This document shows positions 1,557-55,018 of a stretch of 64,000 bases of DNA, piece after piece (the first letter of the stretch is position 1; each line of letters starts with the position of its first letter). Below the pieces are notes generated by a model that was given only the letters and a program-made list of their open reading frames with translations, was not told where the DNA came from and searched no databases. The position numbers and the translations under genes are program-made. Origin of the DNA: Phaeotremella fagi (Eukaryota; Basidiomycota; Tremellomycetes; Tremellales; Phaeotremellaceae); assembly GCA_001599715.1 (NCBI GenBank), contig BCHU01000006.1:1222765-1286764 (forward strand), written 5' to 3'.

Positions 1557-4500
1557 ATGTCAAGAGCAGTCCTTCCAGGTTTATCTGAAGACTATGTGAC
1601 TCAAGTAAGTTGAACGAATCAGTCGTTTGACATCAAGTCAGCCCTCAGTGCTAGACCTATCATCAGCTAACATATCCTTTGTCAATAGTATTTCTCAAAA
1701 GATGTCGTAACTCAAAATAGTGATGTGACTGGAAGATGGAAAGTCATGGTTAGGAATTTCTCTTTCGTTTGGAACGAGTGTTAAACTGATAGAAATCAGA
1801 GATCATGGGTTGAAGAAGAAGGGGAGTTACCACCTCCTGCACCGGGTCAGATTTTGCATCCTCTAGACAGACAGCTTCTCAGAGGAGAAGTTGGGATTAG
1901 GTATGTAAAACCCAGTTAATAGCTCTTAATCGAGGTTCTGACCTAAATCTCATAGTAACATCTCAACGGGTGAATTGAGAATCGTACCGGAATCATCTGT
2001 CTCCTTATTCACGAGAGAGTTCATGAAAGGTGATCTAGTGAAACGCTCACTTACCGATCAAGAAAGTGCAGTGGTTACGTCTTTCTATACTGAGATGCGA
2101 TTACAACACTCGGTTTCAGGTCAGATTATCGATAGTTGGATACCGATGGAGAAGGTTATGAACGCTATGAAAGTTGATAGGAAGGATAGAGTGGTTTATG
2201 ATGAATGGATAGGAACTGTTGAGGAGGCATGTCTGGTCTCTTATAGGGTTATATACTGATCCTTTTCCAAATAGATCTTAGAGGAGGGTGTCATCGAAGG
2301 TCCAGATGGTCATTTGATTACAACAGCTGAATTAGGTGGTAATCTAGAACCAGGGAAACAGATCTCGGTGAGTCGTCAACGTAACCTACGGTTTATATCG
2401 TGGAAACTCATTTCGTGAATGTAGGAGATCATGCGAACTGGAGATCCTCTATACAGATTCCCCTATGCTCCAGAACAAAACTTACCAGGTATTTCCAGTT
2501 TAGTGGTTGAGGTGAATCCTGCTATCATGTATATCAAATGGAATGCTATTAATCAATTGGTAAGGTTAAAGAAAAACAATTGATAATCTACTGACTGACA
2601 ACTAGTTGCCGATATCTGAACAATACAAACATCCTGAACCACCTCATTTCATCTCGGGTGAATTGATATCTAAATTGACCAGGTTTGATTTCATGAGATC
2701 ATTTTCTCAAGTACCAGAAGTTGGAACTGCCGTAGTCTTCATTGATGATAACGACTATAAAAGTACGTCCACATCTCAAGTGGAAATTGTGTACTGATTT
2801 GTCTTTAGAGTATAAAGCAAAACATACAGTTCATCTTGGGGGGTCGAAAACTCTTAACGTCTGGAGGATAATGGAGACAAAGTCGAAATTGTCTTTGAGA
2901 TGGCAGGATGGAAGGAGTGAGACTGTTTGGTCGAAAGATGTTGTGCCGTATAATAACATTGATGAGTGAGTGGGATGTTCCCGTCGAAGACTTTTGGCTT
3001 TACTGACATGACGATAATCAGTTATGAAGCTTGGTGAGTTTCGTTTTATTCTTCCTGATTCACATATTGATACGCATTTCCCTCAGGCCTGGAGACCACG
3101 TCTTATGGCGAAGTGACAACGAAGAGAAGCGTCCAGCTGTGATTCAATCTTTCAATGCACGTCAAAGAGTCGCTGAAATTTTGCTATTGGATGACCAAAC
3201 CAAAATCTTGGTTCCTGTCATCGAACTCGACACTGGAGGAGCTGAATCTAATTTGGGTACGAGTTACGGCGAACCAGTTCTCTTGACCAAAGATAATCAA
3301 TCTTCATTACCTGAAGTTCCGATTCTTGGTGGTATGGACAACGTCGATAACGATTGGATGAGGCAGCTCACGATTCTATCTAAAGATTATGAGAGAAATC
3401 CTACAAAGTACGGTAAACATTTACCTAATTTTGATAGGTCTTCTTTGGATTGGTGGGGGGAAGTAGAGGATCTTCAATTGGACGGTAAAATACGGGTGAA
3501 ACTTGCTAATGGACAGTCGAAGGTAGTGGAGTTGAAAGAGATCATTTCGTTAGGCGGTGCGGATGGTTATGCTGAATGGGAGAATAATGATGGTTCCTTC
3601 CCTGGTGAATGGGATCTACCACCTGGAATGGGGATAGAGATGGAAGCTATGGGAAACATGGGTCTTACTCCGGAGATGTTCCAAGGAATGTCAGCTTTCA
3701 TGCGGATTGCAGCTGGACCAGGTAGTGAAGCTAGTTGGGAGACTATGACAGAAGAAGACGACGAAGATGAAGACGATTTGATGGATGCTGGTGAAGCCGA
3801 AGATTTCATGGATAATTCAATGGATTTCGAAGATCACCAAACTCCAGATGTGGTTCCTATAGTTTTGGACTCTCAACCCGAACCTGTCGAACGTCTTGTT
3901 GAAGAGGACATGGAACCTGAAATACCTGTTGCTGGACCTTCTACACACTCTCGTGTTGTTGGTTCTCAAACGATACCTGTCGATCAGACTTGGGACAGTT
4001 TTGATATCCTTGAAGAAGCTCCTGATGATCATCATTATTTCTTGGAACCTAGGTTAGACGCTTCGAGTAAAGCGTATCATACTAGATTACAGAGGGAACA
4101 TCGGGCTTTGTCTTCGTCTCTACCAGGTATGTTTCACTCTCCCGTGCTGCTTGATACATTTTGACTTGAATAGATAACATCCTCGTTCGAACATATGAAG
4201 ATCGAGCGGATCTTATGAGATGCTTAATCATTGGTCCGGAGGGTACTCCGTAAGTTACGTTTCATCGCATAAAAGATAAGACAGACTGATTGACCACATT
4301 CTTAGATACGCTGATGCACCTTTCGTCTTTGATTTGTATCTAAACCCAACGAAATTCCCAAATGAACCCCCATCAGTTCATTTCCATTCACATACCAATG
4401 GTCATGGAAGATGTAATCCGAACTTATATGAAGAAGGCAAAGTCTGTTTATCGATTTTGGGTACTTGGGCAGGGGATAGTTCGGAGTCATGGAGGTAAGA

Positions 4501-44131: not shown

Positions 44132-45160
44132 ATGTCTATATCAAAACATAAACGTCCTATATACATTTCAATAGCTATCACTCTAACTCTCATACTCCTT
44201 CTAACTTCATACACCTACTACGACCCAACAACCCTAACCCTAACCCCAACCAACCATCTCACAATGTCCTCAATAACCTCTCTCCCAAAAGTAACAGAGT
44301 TCCCATTGACCAACACCGAAAAATTAATAGAACTGATAACAGCCCACGAGAAAGAACTTCGTTTCGAATCTTTCTCAGCCGAAAAAGCTTGGCAGGTCGG
44401 GAACGCTATTCGAGCTGGTTTCATTGCTCAGACACCGGATTATTTGGTTCAGGGGAAAGGTTTGGTTATCAGTGTAGCTCTTTTCACGGGACATGTGTTG
44501 TTTGGGGCCGCTGTCGGTGAAGCTCCTGTCATTGGGCCTGATAACTGGTGGGTCTGGTGTTTCAGCTTATCGGCCGACAGGAATTAGGAGCTGAAGCTGA
44601 TATGATGACAACAGGGCTTGGGTTAAAGCTAAAACTAACGTTGTGGAACGATTCAGTAAATCTTCACTCAGAGTTGGAAGAGAGTAGGCTATTCTCCATC
44701 AGATTGTGCTACAAGAAAATCTAACACAGTCCCTTCTCAGAATCGCTTCCAAAGGCTCAACACCAGAAGAGAAAGGTCTTGTCTTCCCAGAATACGCTTG
44801 TCACGGTGGAGGTGAGTTCTGTTTCTCATTGACAAACATAAGCTGACTCTTGATTTCAGGATTCCCAATTTGGTTGAAAGTATGTGGTTGAGGTTGTCGA
44901 TCATGTGGATTAGTCTAACTCGTGTAGAACAACAACACCGCTCCTATTGGTGCTATCGTCGTTTCTGGACTTCCTCAATTATCAGATCATCAGGTGAGCA
45001 GCTGAAGTTCTCTGTACTGTAGAGTTACCAGCTGATCTCTTCCACTCGACTTCTCTTTACAACAGCTCATCGTAAGTTTTATAGCGTCAACAAACTAATC
45101 AGGTATACTAACGAACTCCAGGTTGACACCCTATCATCAAACGCCCAACTTCTGCAATAG
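44132..45160 (+). CDS. Haem-degrading-domain (YBR137W-like) protein with optional N-terminal membrane anchor
   Basis: Multi-exon gene. The first ATG (44132) gives MSISKHKRPIYISIAITLTLILLLTSYTYY, a hydrophobic anchor or signal. A second in-frame ATG at 44264 (MSSITSLPKVTEFPLTNTEK) would give a soluble form like yeast Ybr137w. The body matches the Haem_degrading/HbpS-like family: HEKELRFESFSAEKAWQVGNAIRA, GKGLVISVALFTGHVLFGAAVGE, PDNWVWVKAKTNVVERFSKSS-like centre, PEYACHGGGFPIWL, NNTAPIGAIVVSGLPQLSDHQLIVDTL. Exon 45066-45071 is only six bases (CTCATC). In yeast Ybr137w binds the GET pathway; enzymatic activity is unproven. It ends SSNAQLLQ. Confidence 0.8.
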
Positions 45161-45267
45161 ATAATTGTCGTATGACTCACAGTATGCAAGTGATCGAACA
45201 CACGCTAGCACTGATTCGTGGCTACGACTCAAAAAGATTTGTGTAATAACAAAGGATAACAAAAGGA

Positions 45268-45377
45268 GACCTCGCGGTTTAATTACGATTGTTGTCTATC
45301 GAAACGCTGCCGTGAGAGAACGATAATCTGTGAAGGCAGATCCTTACATCCGTTATTTCACATTATGCTACGAGGCC
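45268..45377 (-). ncRNA. tRNA-like Pol III RNA candidate R1
   Basis: 110 nt on the minus strand. Ends GGCCTCG (45377-45371) and CGAGGTC (45274-45268) can form a 7-bp stem with one G-U pair. TAGCATAA follows the 5' strand directly, as at tRNA positions 8 onward. The 3' part can fold as GTTTCGAT/ATCG...AAAC. A TTTT run lies at 45264-45261. The TATA-like signal is weak (GATAAA near 45414). Confidence 0.6.
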
Positions 45378-45579
45378 GTAATTCAATGTTCTTCCCAAAC
45401 CAAAATACGATTTATCAATGAATATCCAAAGGTCCTTTGGCTTTTGATTTCGTTTCTTTGTATCGTATGACGGTCTTAATCATCTGATAACAGAAAAACT
45501 AGTCTCAATCTAAAAGGTCTTCCCAGACTGGAAAATTGACTTGACGAAAGAACTTGATTACAGGATAAAAAAACAAAGT

Positions 45580-45683
45580 GACCTCGGAACAAGTCCTCTG
45601 AAGCGCATTCCTGCGCCAGAGAGGACTCGAACGGGAGTTTAAATATTGTTATTTCAACTGAATATGGGTTATGCTACGAGGCC
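45580..45683 (-). ncRNA. tRNA-like Pol III RNA candidate R2
   Basis: 104 nt. Ends GGCCTCG and CGAGGTC pair. TAGCATAACCC lies at the box A position, and GTTCGAGTC matches the minimal B-box GWTCRANNC. The hairpin CTCTG-GCGCA-GGAA-TGCGC-TT-CAGAG has a GNRA loop. A seven-T run lies at 45573-45567, and a TTATATT box about 30 bp upstream of the 5' end (45713-45719). Confidence 0.7.
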
Positions 45684-45938
45684 TTTTGTTTGGTCCAAAA
45701 CACTTAGTTCCCAATATAAGCCTCTGACCGGTTCTCGAGAGAGGTCCTTTGGCCTCGTGTTTTGGGTTTGGAAAGTCGACAAGAAAGAAAACGTTAGTAA
45801 GAATAATGAATTTCAAGCTCGACAATGACATGAACTGAAGGAATCAGCTTGCCAAAAGGAGAAAGATAATGTTCAAGTACTGTATGGAAAGACACTATCC
45901 CAAAAAAGAAAGTATCAGAGCCAAAAAAACATCAAAGA

Positions 45939-46026
45939 GACCTCGAATGCTGTGCGTTCGAGCAACGCACAGCATGTACGCTCGAGGACGCGATAACATG
46001 ATCGTAAGTGATTGTGCTACGAGGCC
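45939..46026 (-). ncRNA. tRNA-like Pol III RNA candidate R3
   Basis: 88 nt. Same terminal pairing and TAGCACAA. A perfect 10-bp hairpin, GCTGTGCGTT / AACGCACAGC with a 5-nt loop, sits at 45949-45973. A seven-T run lies at 45929-45923. The upstream TATA-like box is weak. Confidence 0.65.
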
Positions 46027-46289
46027 GTTGTGTTTGCTAAATAAGCGATTTTGGCTATTTGAACCCTTCTTTGTGATTTTTTGAGAAAAACGTTAACGCT
46101 CCTTTCGACTCGAATATGCATGGGATTCCGTCTAATTATTGCCTACGGCTTAAGAGAGTATTTTGAATTACAAATGAACAGTAAATATGGCGAGAACAAT
46201 GATGACGGTCAACAATCCTCGGATTCGAGTATAGTACTTGCACATTGTTTTGGTACATATCATTATCTTTTCCTAAAAACAGCAAATTT

Positions 46290-46416
46290 GACCTCGAGAG
46301 CTCGAATCCATGGAGCCAATCATATGGACTGCCCCACTGATTCGAACTCTGGGCACTAGAGAGTGCACTTTCATCAAAGGATCAATTGATAGTATATTGA
46401 ATTATGCTACGAGGCC
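46290..46416 (-). ncRNA. tRNA-like Pol III RNA candidate R4
   Basis: 127 nt. GGCCTCG/CGAGGTC terminal stem and TAGCATAA. GTTCGAATC is a perfect B-box core and also forms one side of an 11-bp stem (GAGTTCGAATC with GATTCGAGCTC). Inside it are further pairs, GGGGC/GCTCC and AGTC/GATT. Five Ts lie at 46279-46275. TATATA stands about 33 bp upstream (46450-46455). Confidence 0.7.
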
Positions 46417-46927
46417 TTTGGTTTGGTTTGAAAGCGTTTTGCGTTTGGTTATATACCGTCAAGGTCACCTTACGAGTTGATAATAGTAAGGGTTAGAAGC
46501 AGTACACAGTCTGATCTTCGAATGGATGACTTCTCTCAAAGTTTTGGGTTGGTTGGGTATATAGTACAAATTTTAATCTTGCACAGTAACAGTGAACAAC
46601 TTTGGTGACGAAATTCGAAAGTGGCTTTGCCAACTTCTTGAATTTCTTTTTCTTTTTGATCGCTCATGGAAACAAAGTCTCGCCGTAATGTATACATCAC
46701 AGCGCAGGCTTTTCAAGTTTTCTACTAATTTACCAAACTTCCACTCTATACTTCAATACACTAACTTCTGGAATCACGGGAAAATTAAATAAACGACGGA
46801 GCGGTTCGTATGAACAACAAGGAATTCGAGGGTGAAGAAGATGAAATGAGAAGGGAAAAGACTGAAAACGATCTGAAAACCTCTATTAACATTTACAAGA
46901 CTAAAGCTGGAAGGGTGATGAACCATA

Positions 46928-47920
46928 TTAAAGGCTGAAGTCTTCGGTATCTTCTTCTTCTTCACGACTTGATCGAATTGGAAGTTCAACGATCTCACCT
47001 GAAATAGCATTCGGATTGACGGGACTCATATCGTAACCGCTTTTGGCGAGACTCGAGTCTCCACGTACGAGAGTAAACTCTTTCTCCTCATCTCCTTTAT
47101 CATCACCTTCTTTTGAACTCGAGGTCGCCATGTCTTCGAGTAGTTGACATACCTTCTCGTGATCTTTCAGAGCTTCTTGGAATTTCTCGTAGGCTTCAAG
47201 ATAAGTTGTATGGATTGACGCCGTTTTCGTATGATTGTAAGGATCGGTTATTCGGAGTGAGCGAAGGGATCTCCAAGGGTTTTGTAGGGCGAGATACGAC
47301 TCTGTAAGTGATTTCGTTGGATCTCCGAGGATATTGAGTTTGTCTTGGGTTAAAAGGAGAGAACCTCGGAACAATTGATTTTTGAAGTTGATTTTGGATG
47401 AATAAGCCATATCCTCGACTTCTTTCTGCTGAGAATCACATGTAGTTTCTGAAGGCTTACAATTCGTCGATGTAATATGAACCTTTTTAGCGTCTTCGAC
47501 ATTTTCGTTGAAAGTCTGTAGAGATTTGATGAGACCAATTCCGGCTTTCTGGTAAGATTTTTTGAGGGAGTTGTATTTATCTACCATAAGGGAGTATGGT
47601 ACTTCTGGTGAATGTCTCGAATACGTGTCTAATTCGTAACCCAAGATATCTTGAGTGACGCTCTTCCAAACCTTTAAATGGTGACTACAGACAGATTGGT
47701 ATTCTTTCTCAAAGTTCTCGATTTCGAGCTGAGTATCGCTACCAATGACGTCGGAACATTTTGTAAGATATTTTCTGAATGTATGCCTTTTCCTCTCCAT
47801 GGTGTTCATTGACTCTTCCATCCAGACGAGCTGTCTAAGGAATTCGTCACGAGAGGCGACTGTTTCTGGGGGAGTGTGGAGGGTGAGGAATTTGGGGGCA
47901 CTTGATGTTTGTTTCGACAT
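46928..47920 (-). CDS. Unrecognised 330-residue protein, helical
   Basis: Intronless, start MSKQTSSAPKFLTLHTPPET. Hydrophobic/charged periodicity predicts long helices or coiled coil (EFLRQLVWMEESMNTMERKRHTFRKYL, KYNSLKKSYQKAGIGLIKSLQTFNENVEDAKK, TYLEAYEKFQEALKDHEKVCQLLEDMA). The spacing is reminiscent of BAR-like eisosome or sorting proteins, but I see no diagnostic motif. The tail is acidic (REEEEDTEDFSL). It lies inside the orphan-gene island. Confidence 0.7.
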   Translation of the reverse strand: MSKQTSSAPKFLTLHTPPETVASRDEFLRQLVWMEESMNTMERKRHTFRKYLTKCSDVIGSDTQLEIENFEKEYQSVCSHHLKVWKSVTQDILGYELDTYSRHSPEVPYSLMVDKYNSLKKSYQKAGIGLIKSLQTFNENVEDAKKVHITSTNCKPSETTCDSQQKEVEDMAYSSKINFKNQLFRGSLLLTQDKLNILGDPTKSLTESYLALQNPWRSLRSLRITDPYNHTKTASIHTTYLEAYEKFQEALKDHEKVCQLLEDMATSSSKEGDDKGDEEKEFTLVRGDSSLAKSGYDMSPVNPNAISGEIVELPIRSSREEEEDTEDFSL

Positions 47921-48634
47921 GTTGACTTAGAGGAGGCAAATCGATTAAGAAGTTGGAATTGAATTAGACGTGAAGCACAAGATGATATATTTAGCGTGAT
48001 GTGGTCGATTCTCAAGTTGAGTTATGAATGTTGAGGGAATGACAGAGTTGATAAGAGTTGAATTTAATATACTACCTCGCGCCGTATTCGCTCAACAGCG
48101 CGGAGTATAGATATCAAAGAAAGAGTTACTCTCAAAAAGGATGAGTTCTCCTTTTAATGTATTACCCTATGAGACTTGTAATCGGGTTTCGTGACGTAGT
48201 TGGAAGGCGTTTCGTTTGTTCATGATGACTTATTTGCGTTTGATCCTTTCTCAGCTATGGCTATCTTTTCATGACTCCGCGTTTCTTGTACTGAAGGGGT
48301 ATCGCAACATATATCTGATTGCCTGTAGTGATCTTTTTCATTGAGTGAGCAAGTACTGTAGCTCATAGATTGAAACATTTGTAAAAATGTCATTGTCTCC
48401 GAAACAGATTGTTTTCAAATCATAATGGAGCGAAGCCTTCTAAATAAAACAGATAGTGAGCACGTTCGACATGAGGTCATTTTAGATCTCCTTTGAAGCA
48501 TTTTCTGAAAAAAGGATGGGTCGAATGCCTTCCTATATGCATTTGTCGCTATTTAGTTGACAATCAAATGACAATTTCCTCCCTTCTCTCTTTTCTTTTA
48601 CTACCACCTTTGCCACCACTGCAATACCACTATA
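47921..48634. other. Divergent intergenic
   Basis: 714 bp between divergent orphan genes. A GC-rich inverted repeat (CTCGCGC... with ...GCGCGGAG) sits at about 48076-48107; it resembles the 3' hairpin of the RNA family but has no matching 5' strand. No gene is supported. Confidence 0.45.
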
Positions 48635-49099
48635 ATGTCTACTTCTGTTGCCACCCCAACCAGAAAATTCACAGTCGGAAATTGGACCTTTTATGGTAAC
48701 ACTGAAGATGCTAAAGAAGTTTTCCCCAGCGAAAGTCACCCTTATCACCCTGATTGGCATTATTGCTGGGCCAGATCCAAGAAATTCACCCAAATCTTGG
48801 TACGTCTCTACTACGCAGATTCAGATTCATCCACTCAGCTCGCAGCCGGCTACTACGAGACGCAAATCTCCGACAGCACCATTTTCAAGCATGGTTATTA
48901 TTTTCGACCCAACATCACTCAAGAAGACATCAAGAAAGATTTAAAAGATCTTCAAACTCTAGTTCCTCGGTACAACCCGACAGTTCAACAGAAACAAGAG
49001 ATCAACGACGCTATCAATTTTGAGATCGATAATCTCAGCGAAGGTTTCTCAAGGGCGATCCAGTATAAGAAGGGGGGATACTCAGTCAGTAGTACTTGA
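48635..49099 (+). CDS. Unrecognised GNWTFYG-family protein 1
   Basis: Intronless, 154 residues, start MSTSVATPTRKFTVGNWTFYGNTEDAKEVFPSES. It contains WARSKKFTQILVRLYYADSD, AAGYYETQISDSTIFKHGYYF and EINDAINFEIDNLSEGFSRA. It is clearly paralogous to the next gene (see there). No membrane segment or signal peptide. Function unknown. Confidence 0.75.
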   Translation: MSTSVATPTRKFTVGNWTFYGNTEDAKEVFPSESHPYHPDWHYCWARSKKFTQILVRLYYADSDSSTQLAAGYYETQISDSTIFKHGYYFRPNITQEDIKKDLKDLQTLVPRYNPTVQQKQEINDAINFEIDNLSEGFSRAIQYKKGGYSVSST

Positions 49100-49514
49100 G
49101 TTTCTGGAAAGGCTGTGTCGGGTTTTGAAATTTCAGTATTGGTTGTGTAATTCTCGATTTTTGTCTTCGTAGTGAATTCTTTTGTACATATTTTAATTTG
49201 GTGAGAAATTTTTATGCAAGTGTGCCTCGTTAAAAGTCTGCCAGTCAAGTGAATTACACTACGGCTTCAAACCTCCAGCTTGTTGAAGAGAAGTTGGCTC
49301 ATCTTCTTCTATTTGAGATTTTCCGTGAAAGAACGTGGACAGAATTGCGGTTGATACATCTCTTTTGATAAACCACCTTTCTCATTTCCTGGCAGAAAGG
49401 ATAGAGGGAAGCGCCTTCCTATTGAGATTCGTTGTGTTTGTTGGACGAGCTCTGACAGACTTTTCTTTCTTCCCTCTTAAATCCTTTTGCCACTCGATTA
49501 TTTTTCAGCACCAA
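49100..49514. other. Intergenic between the GNWTFYG paralogues
   Basis: 415 bp of 3' UTR and promoter; no separate gene. The open frame that starts at 49335 and reaches into the next gene begins at a non-conserved region, so I do not use it. Confidence 0.5.
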
Positions 49515-49994
49515 ATGTCCACTCCATCAGAATACATCTCCACACCAACCAGCTTCACGGAAGGGAACTGGACCTTCTACGGTGATCCCCAAGACGCCAA
49601 ACGGTTATTTCCCACAGAGGTTCGCTCTGCTCCAAATTGGGGTTACACCTGGGCATCATCCACCAGCTTCCCTCAAATCTTGGTCCGTTCTTGTAAAAGC
49701 TCAGATACCACTCCACCAATCCAACAGTTCGCGGCTGGGTACTGCGACACTAACGTCTCAAGTACTATCTTCAAGTATGTCTTTCGCGACTTAAATTCGC
49801 CAGCCGATCTCTCCAAAGAAAACATCGCCTTGGATCTAAAATCCCTTCAAACTCAGCTTCCAATCGAGCCTTATACGAACGAGAAGAACCAAGAGACCAA
49901 CCAAGCTATCGATTTCGAGTTCGACAATCTCTGCAATGGTCTCCTCCGAGCTTCTCACTACAGCGAGAAAAAGCCGCTAACAAACGGTGTTTGA
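49515..49994 (+). CDS. Unrecognised GNWTFYG-family protein 2
   Basis: Intronless, 159 residues, start MSTPSEYISTPTSFTEGNWTFYGDPQDAKRLFPTE. Aligns with the preceding gene over its whole length: GNWTFYG, DAK-x-x-FP, W-x-W-A-S/R, F-x-QILVR, AAGY, STIFK, LKxLQT, xINxAIDFExDNLxxGxxRA. It is a tandem duplicate that has diverged substantially. Choice of ATG 49515 over the longer frame from 49335 follows the paralogue's start. Confidence 0.75.
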   Translation: MSTPSEYISTPTSFTEGNWTFYGDPQDAKRLFPTEVRSAPNWGYTWASSTSFPQILVRSCKSSDTTPPIQQFAAGYCDTNVSSTIFKYVFRDLNSPADLSKENIALDLKSLQTQLPIEPYTNEKNQETNQAIDFEFDNLCNGLLRASHYSEKKPLTNGV

Positions 49995-50688
49995 GCTTAT
50001 CAGAAGCTAGGTCGAAGTTCGAACTTTCGTAGTGAAATCGTTGTAGTCTAAGTTTGTAACATATAGTATTTATTCATTTTGATTCTTATTTCATGTTGGG
50101 TTCTTTGTTTATACTTTAACAAGACGGTACTGTGTAATGCAACTGCGAGTTTATGTAAAACAGCATCCAGCACTTTTTATGCAATCTTTCAGTTTATTCA
50201 ACGAAATCTCCCAATTTCAAGTTTGATTGTGAGACGTCAACTGACTCAAATACAGAGGTTCTTCAACAAGAAAATTTGCGAAAATATTCAAGAGTGATTA
50301 CACCGCTGTCAGCATTGGGAAATGGTTATGTCTCTCTTTCATGTTTTCGTTCATGTGTATATTTAAGCATGTCAATTCGTGTATATAGTCACGAATTCTT
50401 TGCAGGTTAACACGAGGCCTTTTAAATTTTAAAAGACAAATTTCCGCAGGACTTTCATGCCGTCTTCTCTTTGACACCACCAAAAGTAGACACGAAAAAG
50501 GAAACACTGTGAAAAAGTTCCGACTTCGTGGCAAAGCAAATGCCACATCTCAAAACATTTCAGGGATCGCCACAACCTAAAAAAAGTTCACATTATTGTG
50601 AGCAAACATACCGAATACCTTGACCGTAGCTGGCCACAGCTCAGCACCTGAGCAGAGACGCAGGAAAGAACAAAAAAGAAACGGAAGA

Positions 50689-50826
50689 GACTTCGCTTAC
50701 GCTCTTTCGAACGCCGGAATAGACCAAGTTTTATTTGTAGGTCATTCCGCACCCTTTGCAGGGGAAGAATTTGTCAAGTATTTGATTGCCCTAAGGCTAA
50801 TATTTTAACTGTTGTGCTACGAAGTC
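50689..50826 (-). ncRNA. tRNA-like Pol III RNA candidate R5
   Basis: 138 nt. Terminal stem GACTTCG/CGAAGTC, a compensated version of GGCCTCG/CGAGGTC. TAGCACAACAG fits box A (TRGYNNARNNG). Hairpins: CCCT-GCAA-AGGG; CGGAAT-GACC/GGTC-T-ATTCCG; and GCGTTC-GAAA-GAGCGT beside the 3' strand, with GTTCGAAAG as near B-box. Six Ts lie at 50677-50672. TATATAA lies 25 bp upstream of the 5' end (50851-50857). Confidence 0.72.
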
Positions 50827-51317
50827 ATGATAAGGAAGTGAAAATAGCCCTTATATACCTTTGTCTTCGAGTTCGGTAAAAACATCATCATATTTTTTCA
50901 AGTCAGGTCATCAAGGATTTTGTTCGTGGATAGTTTTGTAGACCAAGATATTTCTTTGCTGCGCGAATGTACAGCATGCACAACACAACATTACTTCCTA
51001 CAGTAGTATCAGTGTTGGTTGCTATACCATAGCAGATTCAAATGAGACCTAAAAGGATCAATATGCACCCCAAGCTCATTGAAATATCGGCTACGAAAAC
51101 ACCGCTCTATAAAGTAATTTGCTACCCGATTCCGTTGATCCGTTGAACCCTTTGGAAACTCTACTAACATACGACGTTGCTAAACTATACCTGAGATACG
51201 TTATATTTCCCACAGTGTTGTCCGGGTTTTACTCCAATGGTCAATAAGATATTAGACAAAAGCTTCAAGCGTTTCGAACGCTGGATCCAATTTGCGTTTA
51301 CGACTGCAAAAAGAAGG

Positions 51318-51383
51318 GACCTCGGGTGCTGTGCACCTCGGTAAAATCAAGAGAGATCAGATTTCATTTTATGCTACAAGGTC
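51318..51383 (-). ncRNA. tRNA-like Pol III RNA candidate R6
   Basis: 66 nt, the shortest copy. Terminal stem GACCTTG/CGAGGTC with one G-U pair, TAGCATAA, and the 3' hairpin GGTGC-ACA-GCACC placed directly against the 3' strand. There is no clear B-box. Five Ts lie at 51312-51308. A TATAA-like box is 55 bp upstream. Confidence 0.55.
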
Positions 51384-51648
51384 GCGTTAACCGTTGAACT
51401 ATTGCACTGTTGGTTATGAGAAAGACTCAAATTGCCATTATAAATGCAAAAGAATCAACAAGCCAAAATGTTGATTCGGGTGGCGAAGTATCTTTTTTCG
51501 ACAACCCGAGCAAACCATCACCAATAATGTCAAGTAGATATCTCCTTCATTCCAATAACGTTGGATCAGTACTATAACTGAACGTTGCTCTATGCTATCG
51601 AACAGAACAGAGTACCAAATGAAGAACGAATAACCCAATAACCAAAAG

Positions 51649-51737
51649 ATCTCGTGCGTTCTTTCGAACGCAGGCTTCCCTAGGGAAATGGGTCATATTC
51701 CATTTGACAAATGTCTTTCCAGTTATGCTACGAGACC
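51649..51737 (-). ncRNA. tRNA-like Pol III RNA candidate R7
   Basis: 89 nt. Terminal stem GGTCTCG/CGAGATC, a compensated variant with one G-U. TAGCATAACTG is a full match to box A TRGYNNARNNG. Hairpins TTCCC-TA-GGGAA and GCGTTC-GAAA-GAACGC (GAAA tetraloop) follow. Four Ts lie at 51648-51645. A TAATATAG box is 17 bp upstream (51754-51759). Confidence 0.72.
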
Positions 51738-51816
51738 ATTGGTAGGTAAGAGCTATATTACACTTTAAAAGATGCTTAGATCGATAAACAAAAAGGAACG
51801 ATTAGAGAAATAAAAA

Positions 51817-51912
51817 GACCTCGAGTGTTCTTTCGAACACCGGTGCTCCCGAAGGAAATTTGCGTGATAGGCAATTAACAACTCTGTCAATAATAAGTTT
51901 CGCTACAAGGCC
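51817..51912 (-). ncRNA. tRNA-like Pol III RNA candidate R8
   Basis: 96 nt. Terminal stem GGCCTTG/CGAGGTC with G-U pairs; TAGCGAAA. Hairpins TTCC-TTCG-GGAG (UUCG loop) and GTGTTC-GAAA-GAACAC (GAAA loop) next to the 3' strand. Five Ts lie at 51816-51812. TTTATATA is 25 bp upstream (51937-51944). It is the copy nearest the DUF2828 gene (674 bp). Confidence 0.75.
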
Positions 51913-52268
51913 TTGGGTGTGATGGTAAAAATTGCCTATATAAAGTTAATTTGAGTCGAAATAGCTGTTGTTCTTGTGGAAATTCAGGGAGTTGAAGAAA
52001 GATTGAAATTTGACCAAGATCCGTGAATTTTCACTAATTCGCCACTCGAAAATCGAGCGTTTCAACACTTTTTCTAAATAGAAATCCAAGAAATTCGAAA
52101 TGAAAAGTTGAGTTTGAAATTGCGAGAGAAATCTTTTGTCAATAGTCAAGACCAGGTTGCAAATATCACTGCTACGTACAGTAATGTAGAAGATGGGATT
52201 GTGAACATTGCTGAAAATTCGAGTGACATCCCTGATCTGTCTAGGGGAATGACGGCATTAGAAGTACC

Positions 52269-52585: not shown

Positions 52586-55018
52586 ATGTCTTCTATCAAC
52601 ACCCTCCCTACCCAGCCTCAAGCTATCCCATCGAAACCCATCAATAAACTCGACTGGTCGCTCCCATCATCTTTTACCTCTTTACTCCAAGTCGACCTCA
52701 CCACCACTCTAAACAAACTCGTTCCTCTTGTCCCTTCTTCATTCACGTTACCATCCCCTGCCCCCAAAGCTTCAGCACCATTCATCGACGCTCTTCTCGC
52801 CGTCCCTGACGCTCGTACGGCAAAAGGTGCTTTGGCCTTCAGTACCACAGGTTCATCACTTGTCGACCTGTTCTTTGACTTGAACAACGAATGTTCCGCA
52901 GAGATGGTCTTTGATCGTGTTGGAAAGGCTTGGAATGAGGATCCCATGTCGTAAGTTTTTTGTATCTTTCTGTAATTGTCCAGACACTGACTTCTCAACC
53001 TTAGAACACTACGAATTATTTTCCATGCAAGATCCATTCACGAGGGTAAAGGTGCCAAGGAGACCTTCTTCCGTGCAATGGGATGGGTTTGGGAGAAACA
53101 TCCTCGTACTTTCCTCGCCAATCTTCACTTGATCGTCGATCCAACTTGTCCTCGCGACCGATCTCAGAAGAGAGATGCTGAGAAGGCAAAGAATGACAAG
53201 GAGAAGGCTGAGACCAAATTGGCGAAGGATAATGGTGGAATCTTGCTGTTGAACGATTCTGGCGAAGTTGATGTTGAAATGGGTGATGAGGAGAAACCAG
53301 AATATCCACCTCGTCCTCATGGTAGCTTCAACGATTTGGTCGACCTTCTTCTTCTTCACCTCGCTGGTCAACTCAATTCTACCTTTGGTGGTGACTTGGA
53401 TACCAACATCGCCGAACCGGCTTTGGGTAAACATTTCAAGCAAGCCAGAACCAGTGGTAAAAAGCTCACCGCTGCTCAACGTAAAGCTCTTTACAAGAAG
53501 GCTGGGGCAGTCAACAGAAAACTCAGTCGTTCCAGGATGGCTACAGGTGAAACAACAATTCAGATGTCTTTGGCAAACTTGGGATCCAAAATAGCTCGTC
53601 ACGACTACTTGAGAGCTCGATTGATCAAGTCATTGGAAACCGACAAGAAGTTTGTGGCTTTATATCTGGTGGTCATCGATCTCTTCACTCGCCAGCTAAA
53701 GGTCGACCAGGAATCTCTGAAGAAACACTATGACTATCTGCGTTTGCCCCTGGAACAACGAAAAGGTTTTGGAAAAGATGGTTCTCCACATCTTTTTGGT
53801 ATTTCGTATGCGGCTAAATGGATTCCAACGCCAGCTCATGGTGCCGATAAACAGCTTTTGTTCTCCACTGCTATCGGTTCCAAGCTTTACCCACAAGACA
53901 ACGTCAGGTTTTCTCGAGAGAAGCTTCAGAGAAATATCCTTACAACCTTGCGTGCGGCTCAAAAGGTTCCTGAGACCGAAATGAAACAAGGGAAATGGAC
54001 GATCGACTACACCAAGGTTCCTTCATTGTGTATGCGTCGTAACCAGAAGAACTTTGTCGCTCACGATCCTAAAGGTTTCGAAGCTTATATCAAAAAGGTC
54101 AACGAGGGAAAAGCTACGGTTTCTGGTGCTAGTTTGATGCCTCATCAAATTCTGGCAGACTCGATGTCTAGCGAGATTATGACTTGCTCTCTGGCTAACA
54201 TCCAATGGAAAACCTTGGTTGACTCGATCACCTCAAGCTCCAACTCGAAGCTTTCAAACTGTCTCGCCGTCGCTGATGTTTCTGGATCTATGGGTAGTCT
54301 TGATAACTTCATCCATGGTAAACATGTTCATCCTATTGGTCCTTGCATTGCTTTAACGCTCTTGCTTGGAGAACTTGCGATTGCACCATGGAATGGATGT
54401 TTCATCACCTTCACCGACAACCCCAAGATCCAACGTATCGATCCCAGTTTACCGTTAACGAACCGAGCTCAGACGCTAGAGAGAGCTGCATGGGGTATGT
54501 CTACCAACTACTACAAGGTCTTCGATTTGTTGTTGTCGACTGCTAAGAAGGCGAAACTTGCTCCAGAGAACATGATTAAAACCTTGTTCGTCTTCTCCGA
54601 CATGCAGTTCGACGATGGAACAGGTGGATATGTCGAGACCGAACATCAAACGGCAAAACGAAAGTTTGAGGCAGCTGGGTACGAACTTCCTCACCTTGTT
54701 TACTGGAATCTGCAAGGTCACGCGAAACTTGTTGGATCTTCGAAACCTGCAAACGCGAATGAGGATGACGTTTCTCTCTATTCGGGGTTCTCTGGTGCTC
54801 TCATGAAGTACTTCTTGAGAGCGGAGGAGGAGGAAGAGGATGAGGACGAAGACGAGGAAGAGTGGGATGCGATCAAGAAGGAGACTGAGGACATGGGGGG
54901 TGTAGTTGGTGCTCAAGAGAAGGCAGCGGTCAAGGAGAAGAAGAAGAAAAATCCCTTGGATGTAGTCATGGCTACAATCAAGGCGAAACCATTTAGGGAT
55001 GTTGTTGCTGTTGATTGA
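52586..55018 (+). CDS. DUF2828-type protein with helical N-terminal half and von Willebrand A domain
   Basis: Two exons (52586-52950, 53005-55018) give 792 residues. The N-terminal ~500 residues are helical: FIDALLAVPDARTAKGALAFSTTG, TLRIIFHARSIHEGKGAKETFFRAMGWVWEKHPRTFLANL (the DUF2828 R-x-I-x-x-GKG box), then KRKSR-type basic helices. The C-terminal part is a vWA domain: CLAVADVSGSMGS near residue 545 is a complete MIDAS DxSxS, followed by FITFTDNP, TNYYKVFDLLL and LFVFSDMQFD. The tail is acidic then basic. Domain order resembles Ro60/TROVE proteins (helical repeats plus vWA), which bind Y RNAs; relationship is inference. Upstream is the R5-R8 RNA cluster. Confidence 0.85.

Follow-up and report, generated by a model that had tools for sequence, protein, structure and literature searches.

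Eight end-paired RNA elements with Pol III-type signals beside a Ro60-like gene of Phaeotremella fagi: candidates for fungal Y RNAs

We analysed a stretch of 64,000 nucleotides (nt) from the basidiomycete Phaeotremella fagi (contig BCHU01000006.1, positions 1,222,765 to 1,286,764), referred to as the window; coordinates below are counted from its first letter. The window holds a minus-strand array of eight elements (R1 to R8, 66-138 nt each) at 45268-51912 and, beside it, a gene of the DUF2828/DUF7788 type whose product is predicted to share the fold of Ro60. Judged from sequence, the array elements are strong candidates for fungal Y RNAs. All of them have the same layout, i.e., a terminal stem of 7 base pairs (bp), TAGCNNAA directly after the 5' strand, a variable interior and a T-run. 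The 5' strand is GGCCTCG or a variant thereof, and its pairing partner is the element's last 7 nt in 8/8 cases.

The stem GGCCTCG/CGAGGTC is found in R1 (45377-45268, here and below given 5' to 3'; 110 nt), R2 (45683-45580; 104 nt), R3 (46026-45939; 88 nt) and R4 (46416-46290; 127 nt). R2 and R4 contain the box-B-like motifs GTTCGAGTC and GTTCGAATC, respectively. Compensatory changes are present in R5 (50826-50689; 138 nt; GACTTCG/CGAAGTC) and R7 (51737-51648; 90 nt; GGTCTCG/CGAGATC). R6 (51383-51318; 66 nt) has the stem GACCTTG/CGAGGTC and shows GTTCGA downstream only, at 51279, while R8 (51912-51817; 96 nt; GGCCTTG/CGAGGTC) is directly followed by TTTTT.

We then scanned the window in both orientations. 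A hit required a 7-bp stem with five or more Watson-Crick pairs, G-U being accepted for the rest, followed by T[AG]GCNNAA, as well as a total length of 60-145 nt and TTTT within at most 22 nt. With the stem sequence left free, the scan returned these eight elements and nothing else, exactly the set listed by the original prediction, which had been made from the sequence alone. For comparison, 40 Markov-resampled windows yielded 0.275 elements on average and never more than 2. A blind k-mer scan of the window that omits the T-run condition leaves TAGC and TAGCA outside the top ten; only the stricter scan placed them there. Across the eight elements, 56/56 stem cells pair, with several G-U variants among them. 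Double changes occur in 2/7 stem pairs (R7 position 3 and R5 position 4; both C-G to U-A). Since each double change is seen in one sequence and 8/500 shuffles equal the observed level, the stems do covary, but the signal is thin. When a covariance model is trained on the eight elements, it recovers them at E <= 4.6e-9, which is expected by construction, and its next-best match in the window has E = 0.24.

Folding energies are below those of dinucleotide shuffles for 7/8 elements (z from -5.3 to -2.0; for R5 and R7, the folded sequence lacked the last 2 nt), while R1 shows a z of only -0.95. The hairpin that had been claimed to abut the 3' strand of the stem is predicted for R3 (12 bp) and R4 (long), and the predicted fold of R1 has no clear hairpin at this place. 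The element interiors fail to align with one another.

To judge the signals of RNA polymerase III (Pol III), the array was compared with the transfer RNA (tRNA) genes of the same genome (22.6 Mb, 24 contigs; 32 tRNA matches as a lower bound, of which the flanks of 30 loci were used). TTTT within 22 nt is found for 8/8 array elements, 23/30 tRNA genes and 363/4000 random window sites. For a TATA-like box between -45 and -20, the counts are 5/8, 15/30 and 225/4000, respectively. The five boxes of the array begin at -21 to -39; that is, their number was predicted correctly and the predicted range of 17-33 bp upstream was slightly off. They are located on the minus strand at 51937..51942 for R8 (from -30) and at approximate starts 45718 (R2), 46455 (R4), 50857 (R5) and 51758 (R7). 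The complete box A (TRGYNNARNNG) announced for R5 and R7 is there in both, and GTTCGA, which we take to be the box B core, is found inside R2, R4, R5, R7 and R8. Because the TATA and T-run frequencies match those of the genome's tRNA genes, the elements resemble this organism's own Pol III genes, and the earlier reading as Pol III-type loci is well supported by these promoter- and terminator-like signals.

An acceptor-like 7-bp stem, U8-A9-G10-C11 and boxes A and B would also be compatible with degenerate or atypical tRNA genes or with vault-RNA-like genes; vault RNAs share the same general layout. We consider this most improbable given that the window has no tRNA match and that the elements show variable interiors and no anticodon arm. 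No tRNA gene is found in the 64 kb, 0/32 tRNA matches of the genome fall there, and tRNA identity was rejected for want of a cloverleaf with anticodon arm and of any such match. Rfam gives 0 matches on the whole window at gathering cut-offs; on the array at E <= 10 it gives three small nucleolar RNA matches, all scoring far under their cut-offs and located off the elements. The view that these are not ordinary tRNAs thus stands. Among Y RNA families, no metazoan Y RNA is matched by Rfam in the array, and the tRNA-like module of YrlA (RF02553) has no match in 45150-52050 at E <= 10. A search for the vault protein (PF01505) gave no match, but no control was detected either, and this negative carries no weight because the search controls were silent.

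The complementary ends common to eight copies could furthermore be the terminal inverted repeats of a non-autonomous mobile element, i.e., a miniature inverted-repeat transposable element (MITE) or a tRNA-type short interspersed element (SINE). Such elements should have copies elsewhere. DNA searches with the two array halves return the array alone among the best-scoring candidates. The pattern GRYYTYGTAGCNNAA has 19 matches in the genome (7 + 12) vs. 20 (9 + 11) for its reversed control, 8 of the 19 being the array; for YTYGTAGCAYAA we find 22 matches (11 + 11) vs. 31 (16 + 15), 7 of the 22 being the array. One YTYGTAGCAYAA match, at 44704 of the window, is without a 7-bp partner. Together, both 5'-end patterns mark 25 distinct genome places off the array elements. 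At 5 of them, a partner for a 7-bp stem follows at 60-145 nt, again with G-U accepted and five or more Watson-Crick pairs. At C6:32396, the R6 5' strand is followed by a perfect, all-Watson-Crick 7-nt partner 91 nt on, with no T-run, and three further places lack a T-run as well. C21:25078 has everything that the window scan asks for, but its stem (TGTTTCG, two G-U pairs) differs from that of the array. The window-wide rate leads to a chance expectation of about 0.2 such places vs. the 1 found, a number in the range of chance. C6:32396 and C21:25078 may be due to chance, or may be a dead copy and a stray copy, respectively. Within the reach of the 5'-end patterns, which would overlook members that begin differently, the family is thus confined to this locus.

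We regard a mobile element as very unlikely: the interiors are unalignable, DNA search finds no second copies, and the 5'-end patterns reveal no more than one similar place outside the array. In addition, the stems keep G-U wobbles at positions where mismatches would be expected in a DNA inverted repeat, all eight copies are on one strand, and no target-site duplications were seen by eye in the element flanks. The prediction that these are not copies of one SINE is thereby upheld, for MITEs as well.

Some pieces in the region resemble decayed array elements, i.e., a hairpin at 50495-50690 with subsequent CGAAGTC and TTTTT as well as GGCCTCGTG pieces at 50419 (-) and 45751 (+); a 5' partner was found for none of them. 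The gap between R4 and R5 contains the tandem open reading frames (ORFs) 48635-49099 (+) and 49335-49994 (+), which look paralogous by eye, and a 330-residue ORF at 46928-47920 (-), all without Pfam match. A Brix-domain ORF (PF04427; 42744-43286, -) is located on the far side of the array.

The gene on the near side is encoded on the plus strand in two exons, 52586..52950 (ATG at 52586) and 53005..55018. Both are joined in frame over a GT-AG intron and give a 792-residue protein, with exon 2 providing the helical part and a vWA domain with complete metal ion-dependent adhesion site residues. The ORF 53078-55018 matches DUF2828 and DUF7788, and this is the only DUF2828 match detected in the genome. 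The ATG is 674 bp away from the 5' end of R8 in divergent orientation. The closest homologues are Tremellales proteins (Tremellales sp., Kwoniella, Cryptococcus) with 45-49% identity, several of which are labelled 'TROVE domain-containing' in UniRef. A helical ring with vWA fold is present in the predicted models of exon 2 and of a full-length orthologue. Structural alignments with Ro60/TROVE structures (Xenopus Ro60 1YVP, Deinococcus Rsr 2NVO, Thermus phage phiLo Ro60 9L5Y) show 10-14% identity, and the fungal protein is longer than the compared chains (792 vs. 460-532 residues). On the sequence level, the TROVE profile PF05731 has no match in the genome at E <= 1 in a search that detected 1/14 controls, and a PDB sequence search with DUF2828 profiles gave no match.

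If DUF2828 proteins are Ro proteins, Y RNAs are to be expected near other members of the family. We therefore investigated viral and bacterial DUF2828 loci, where the viral set comprises the best 80 of 478 IMG/VR relatives (74 distinct loci). The gaps upstream of the DUF2828 gene are long, with a median of 182 vs. 25 nt for other gaps (84/126 viral and bacterial loci examined, 81 of which gave the gene). Each of the 1024 5-mers was scored for how often it follows the 5' strand of a perfect 7-bp Watson-Crick terminal stem. On the gene strand of the 74 viral loci, CAGCA ranks first (209 elements in 72/74 loci; the median 5-mer has 23), while it is outside the 12 best 5-mers on the opposite strand. 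The density of these elements is 2.75/kb within 250 bp of the gene, 1.37 up to 500 bp, 0.33 up to 1 kb and 0.04-0.08 beyond, compared to 0.00-0.05/kb on the opposite strand. Three permuted-motif controls are at 0-0.06/kb; for AGCAC, whose sequence overlaps with AGCA, the value close to the gene is 0.35/kb. Within 500 bp of the viral gene, we count 150 elements in 63/74 loci with 81 different stem 7-mers. For the bacterial set at any distance, CAGCA is sixth (46 elements in 23/46 loci; median 14). Contigs of bacterial metagenome-assembled genomes from Anaerolineae and Oscillospiraceae (L135 6033-6305 and L143 4235-4477) carry two and three stem + ACAGCAA elements, respectively, beside the DUF2828 gene.

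Relatives of the vWA part (267 residues searched) are found in 664/50,697 phage records, and many mycobacteriophage records annotate this relative as 'Ro-like RNA binding protein'. We selected 16 named phages for diversity; the six of their proteins that were tested all match DUF2828 and DUF7788. Stem + CAGCA elements are found on the gene strand in 13/16 of these phages, with 36 elements vs. 5 on the opposite strand, and 26 of the 36 are within 500 bp and outside the gene (12/16 phages). In this small set, AAAAA outranks CAGCA (44 vs. 36). The scans show no CAGCA element in KVP40, GAP32 and Alsa_1. Looking at sites alone, stems aside, CAT-ACAGC(C/T) occurs several times close to the Alsa_1 gene, and KVP40 has one ACAGCAA.

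Mycobacterium phage Lumos has a YrlA match at 3928-4036 (39.3 bits) that overlaps the element at 3903-4030, and Enterococcus phage A2 has one at 1940-2061 (45.1 bits), both under a cut-off of 69 bits. The Lumos elements span 3842-4098, directly downstream of the gene. The A2 match overlaps a stem + ACAGCG element that can be seen in the sequence but is not part of the CAGCA list. Since YrlA matches overlap two of the phage elements, some of these at least are very likely Y RNAs. In Listeria phage LMTA-34, the DUF2828 gene is closely preceded by three stem + ACAGCAA elements. For Listeria phage CKA15, a published study describes three regions of high, unexplained transcription that lie no more than 2 kb from an Rsr-like gene, for which its authors suggest Y RNAs (PMC12282133). 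Roughly 1 kb upstream of its DUF2828 gene, LMTA-34 also has a ROOL-like RNA (RF03087; L202 774-1325) that scores 88.5 bits, below the gathering score of 99.1. Furthermore, RtcB is encoded 1.3 kb downstream of this gene, GAP32 has an RNA ligase directly upstream, and tRNA genes are often near DUF2828 genes (14/29 viral vs. 4/31 bacterial loci scanned). Nearby tRNA genes, RtcB and RNA ligase suggest that the phage gene sits in an RNA repair or quality-control island.

The fungal elements share with the phage and bacterial Y RNAs, including YrlA (RF02553), a terminal stem closing a variable loop, AGC after the 5' strand and several copies beside a DUF2828-type Ro gene. The phage layout, i.e., a terminal stem of at least 7 bp with AGC within 0-4 nt, is found in 8/8 fungal elements when G-U is allowed; the phage scans demanded Watson-Crick stems, and R5 alone among the fungal elements has all 7 pairs of this kind. 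The fungal stem sequence is nearly constant, whereas phage stems vary widely, and the AGC is preceded by T rather than C. YrlA-type Y RNAs carry a tRNA-like module, while for the fungal array we find Pol III signals and no such module. With the metazoan Y RNAs (Y1, Y3, Y4, Y5), as described in two papers (PMC4726728, PMC4030889), the array has in common Pol III-type terminators, conserved paired ends, least conserved loops and clustered genes. The combination of conserved paired ends and variable loop described in one of them (PMC4030889) is also seen in the array. The bulged C in a 20-30-nt stem region by which, according to the same text (PMC4030889), metazoan Y RNAs bind Ro60 is absent, since the fungal 7-bp stem is unbulged in 8/8 elements. 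The array further differs by its eight copies, the box-B-like motif inside 5/8 and its putative partner from the DUF2828 branch. The literature places Ro60-Y RNA particles in animals and bacteria and reports Y RNAs in mycobacteriophages (PMC4726728, PMC4030889, PMC12282133), and a 2015 review states that no Y RNA candidates are known in plants or fungi (PMC4726728). Among the literature matches listed, with subscription papers mostly outside their scope, there is no later report of a fungal Y RNA.

We think it probable that the eight elements are Pol III-transcribed, Y-RNA-like partners of the fungal Ro60-like (DUF2828 + DUF7788) protein. Several observations weigh against this. The array is on the strand opposite to the protein gene and farther away (674 bp for R8) than in the phage layout with its same strand and at most 500 bp. 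Of the bacterial loci, 4/25 have a stem + CAGCA element within 500 bp. The AGC motif shared with phages is on its own a weak and partly independent parallel, because box A already demands T-R-G-Y, such that AGCA given box A has, by our own estimate, a chance of about 1 in 16. Pol III-type signals need no partner protein, and box A alone explains TAGC. The array could hence be a lineage-specific cluster of Pol III RNAs of another class that is close to the DUF2828 gene by accident. We consider this unlikely, given that proteins of exactly the neighbour's fold have Pol III RNAs with paired ends and variable loops as their known partners and that phage members of the same gene family carry the same RNA layout. 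By our arithmetic, done after the fact, the probability that one array and one gene lie this close by chance in a genome of 22.6 Mb is about 5 in 10,000. The original prediction had called the loci 'tRNA-like'. This reading is partly supported: the sequence signals speak well for its Pol III part, but 'Y-RNA-like' is the better name because a Ro60-fold DUF2828 gene, absent from the prediction, adjoins the array and stem-AGC RNAs flank the same family in phages.

As Y-RNA-like partners, the elements would be transcribed by Pol III from internal box A/box B promoters, aided by the upstream TATA boxes, and the transcripts would end at the T-runs. The paired ends with the adjacent AGC would form a common binding module that docks on the Ro60-like ring in the same way as a Y RNA on Ro60, while the dissimilar loops may tether partners or control the entry of defective RNAs into the ring. 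One type of handle combined with eight loops would suggest eight adaptors for one protein. On a wider scale, we see the chances as evenly balanced that DUF2828 + DUF7788 is a second widespread branch of Ro60-type rings (phages, bacteria, fungi, plants), each with its own arrays of end-paired RNAs read by a stem-plus-AGC code, with the fungal array being a diversified set of adaptors that gives one ring eight loops.

If the elements are indeed such partners, fungi would possess a Ro-Y ribonucleoprotein, and tests of the protein family and of its RNAs would become easy. It would also provide a simple rule, i.e., a terminal stem plus AGC beside a DUF2828 gene, for locating such RNAs in many phages.

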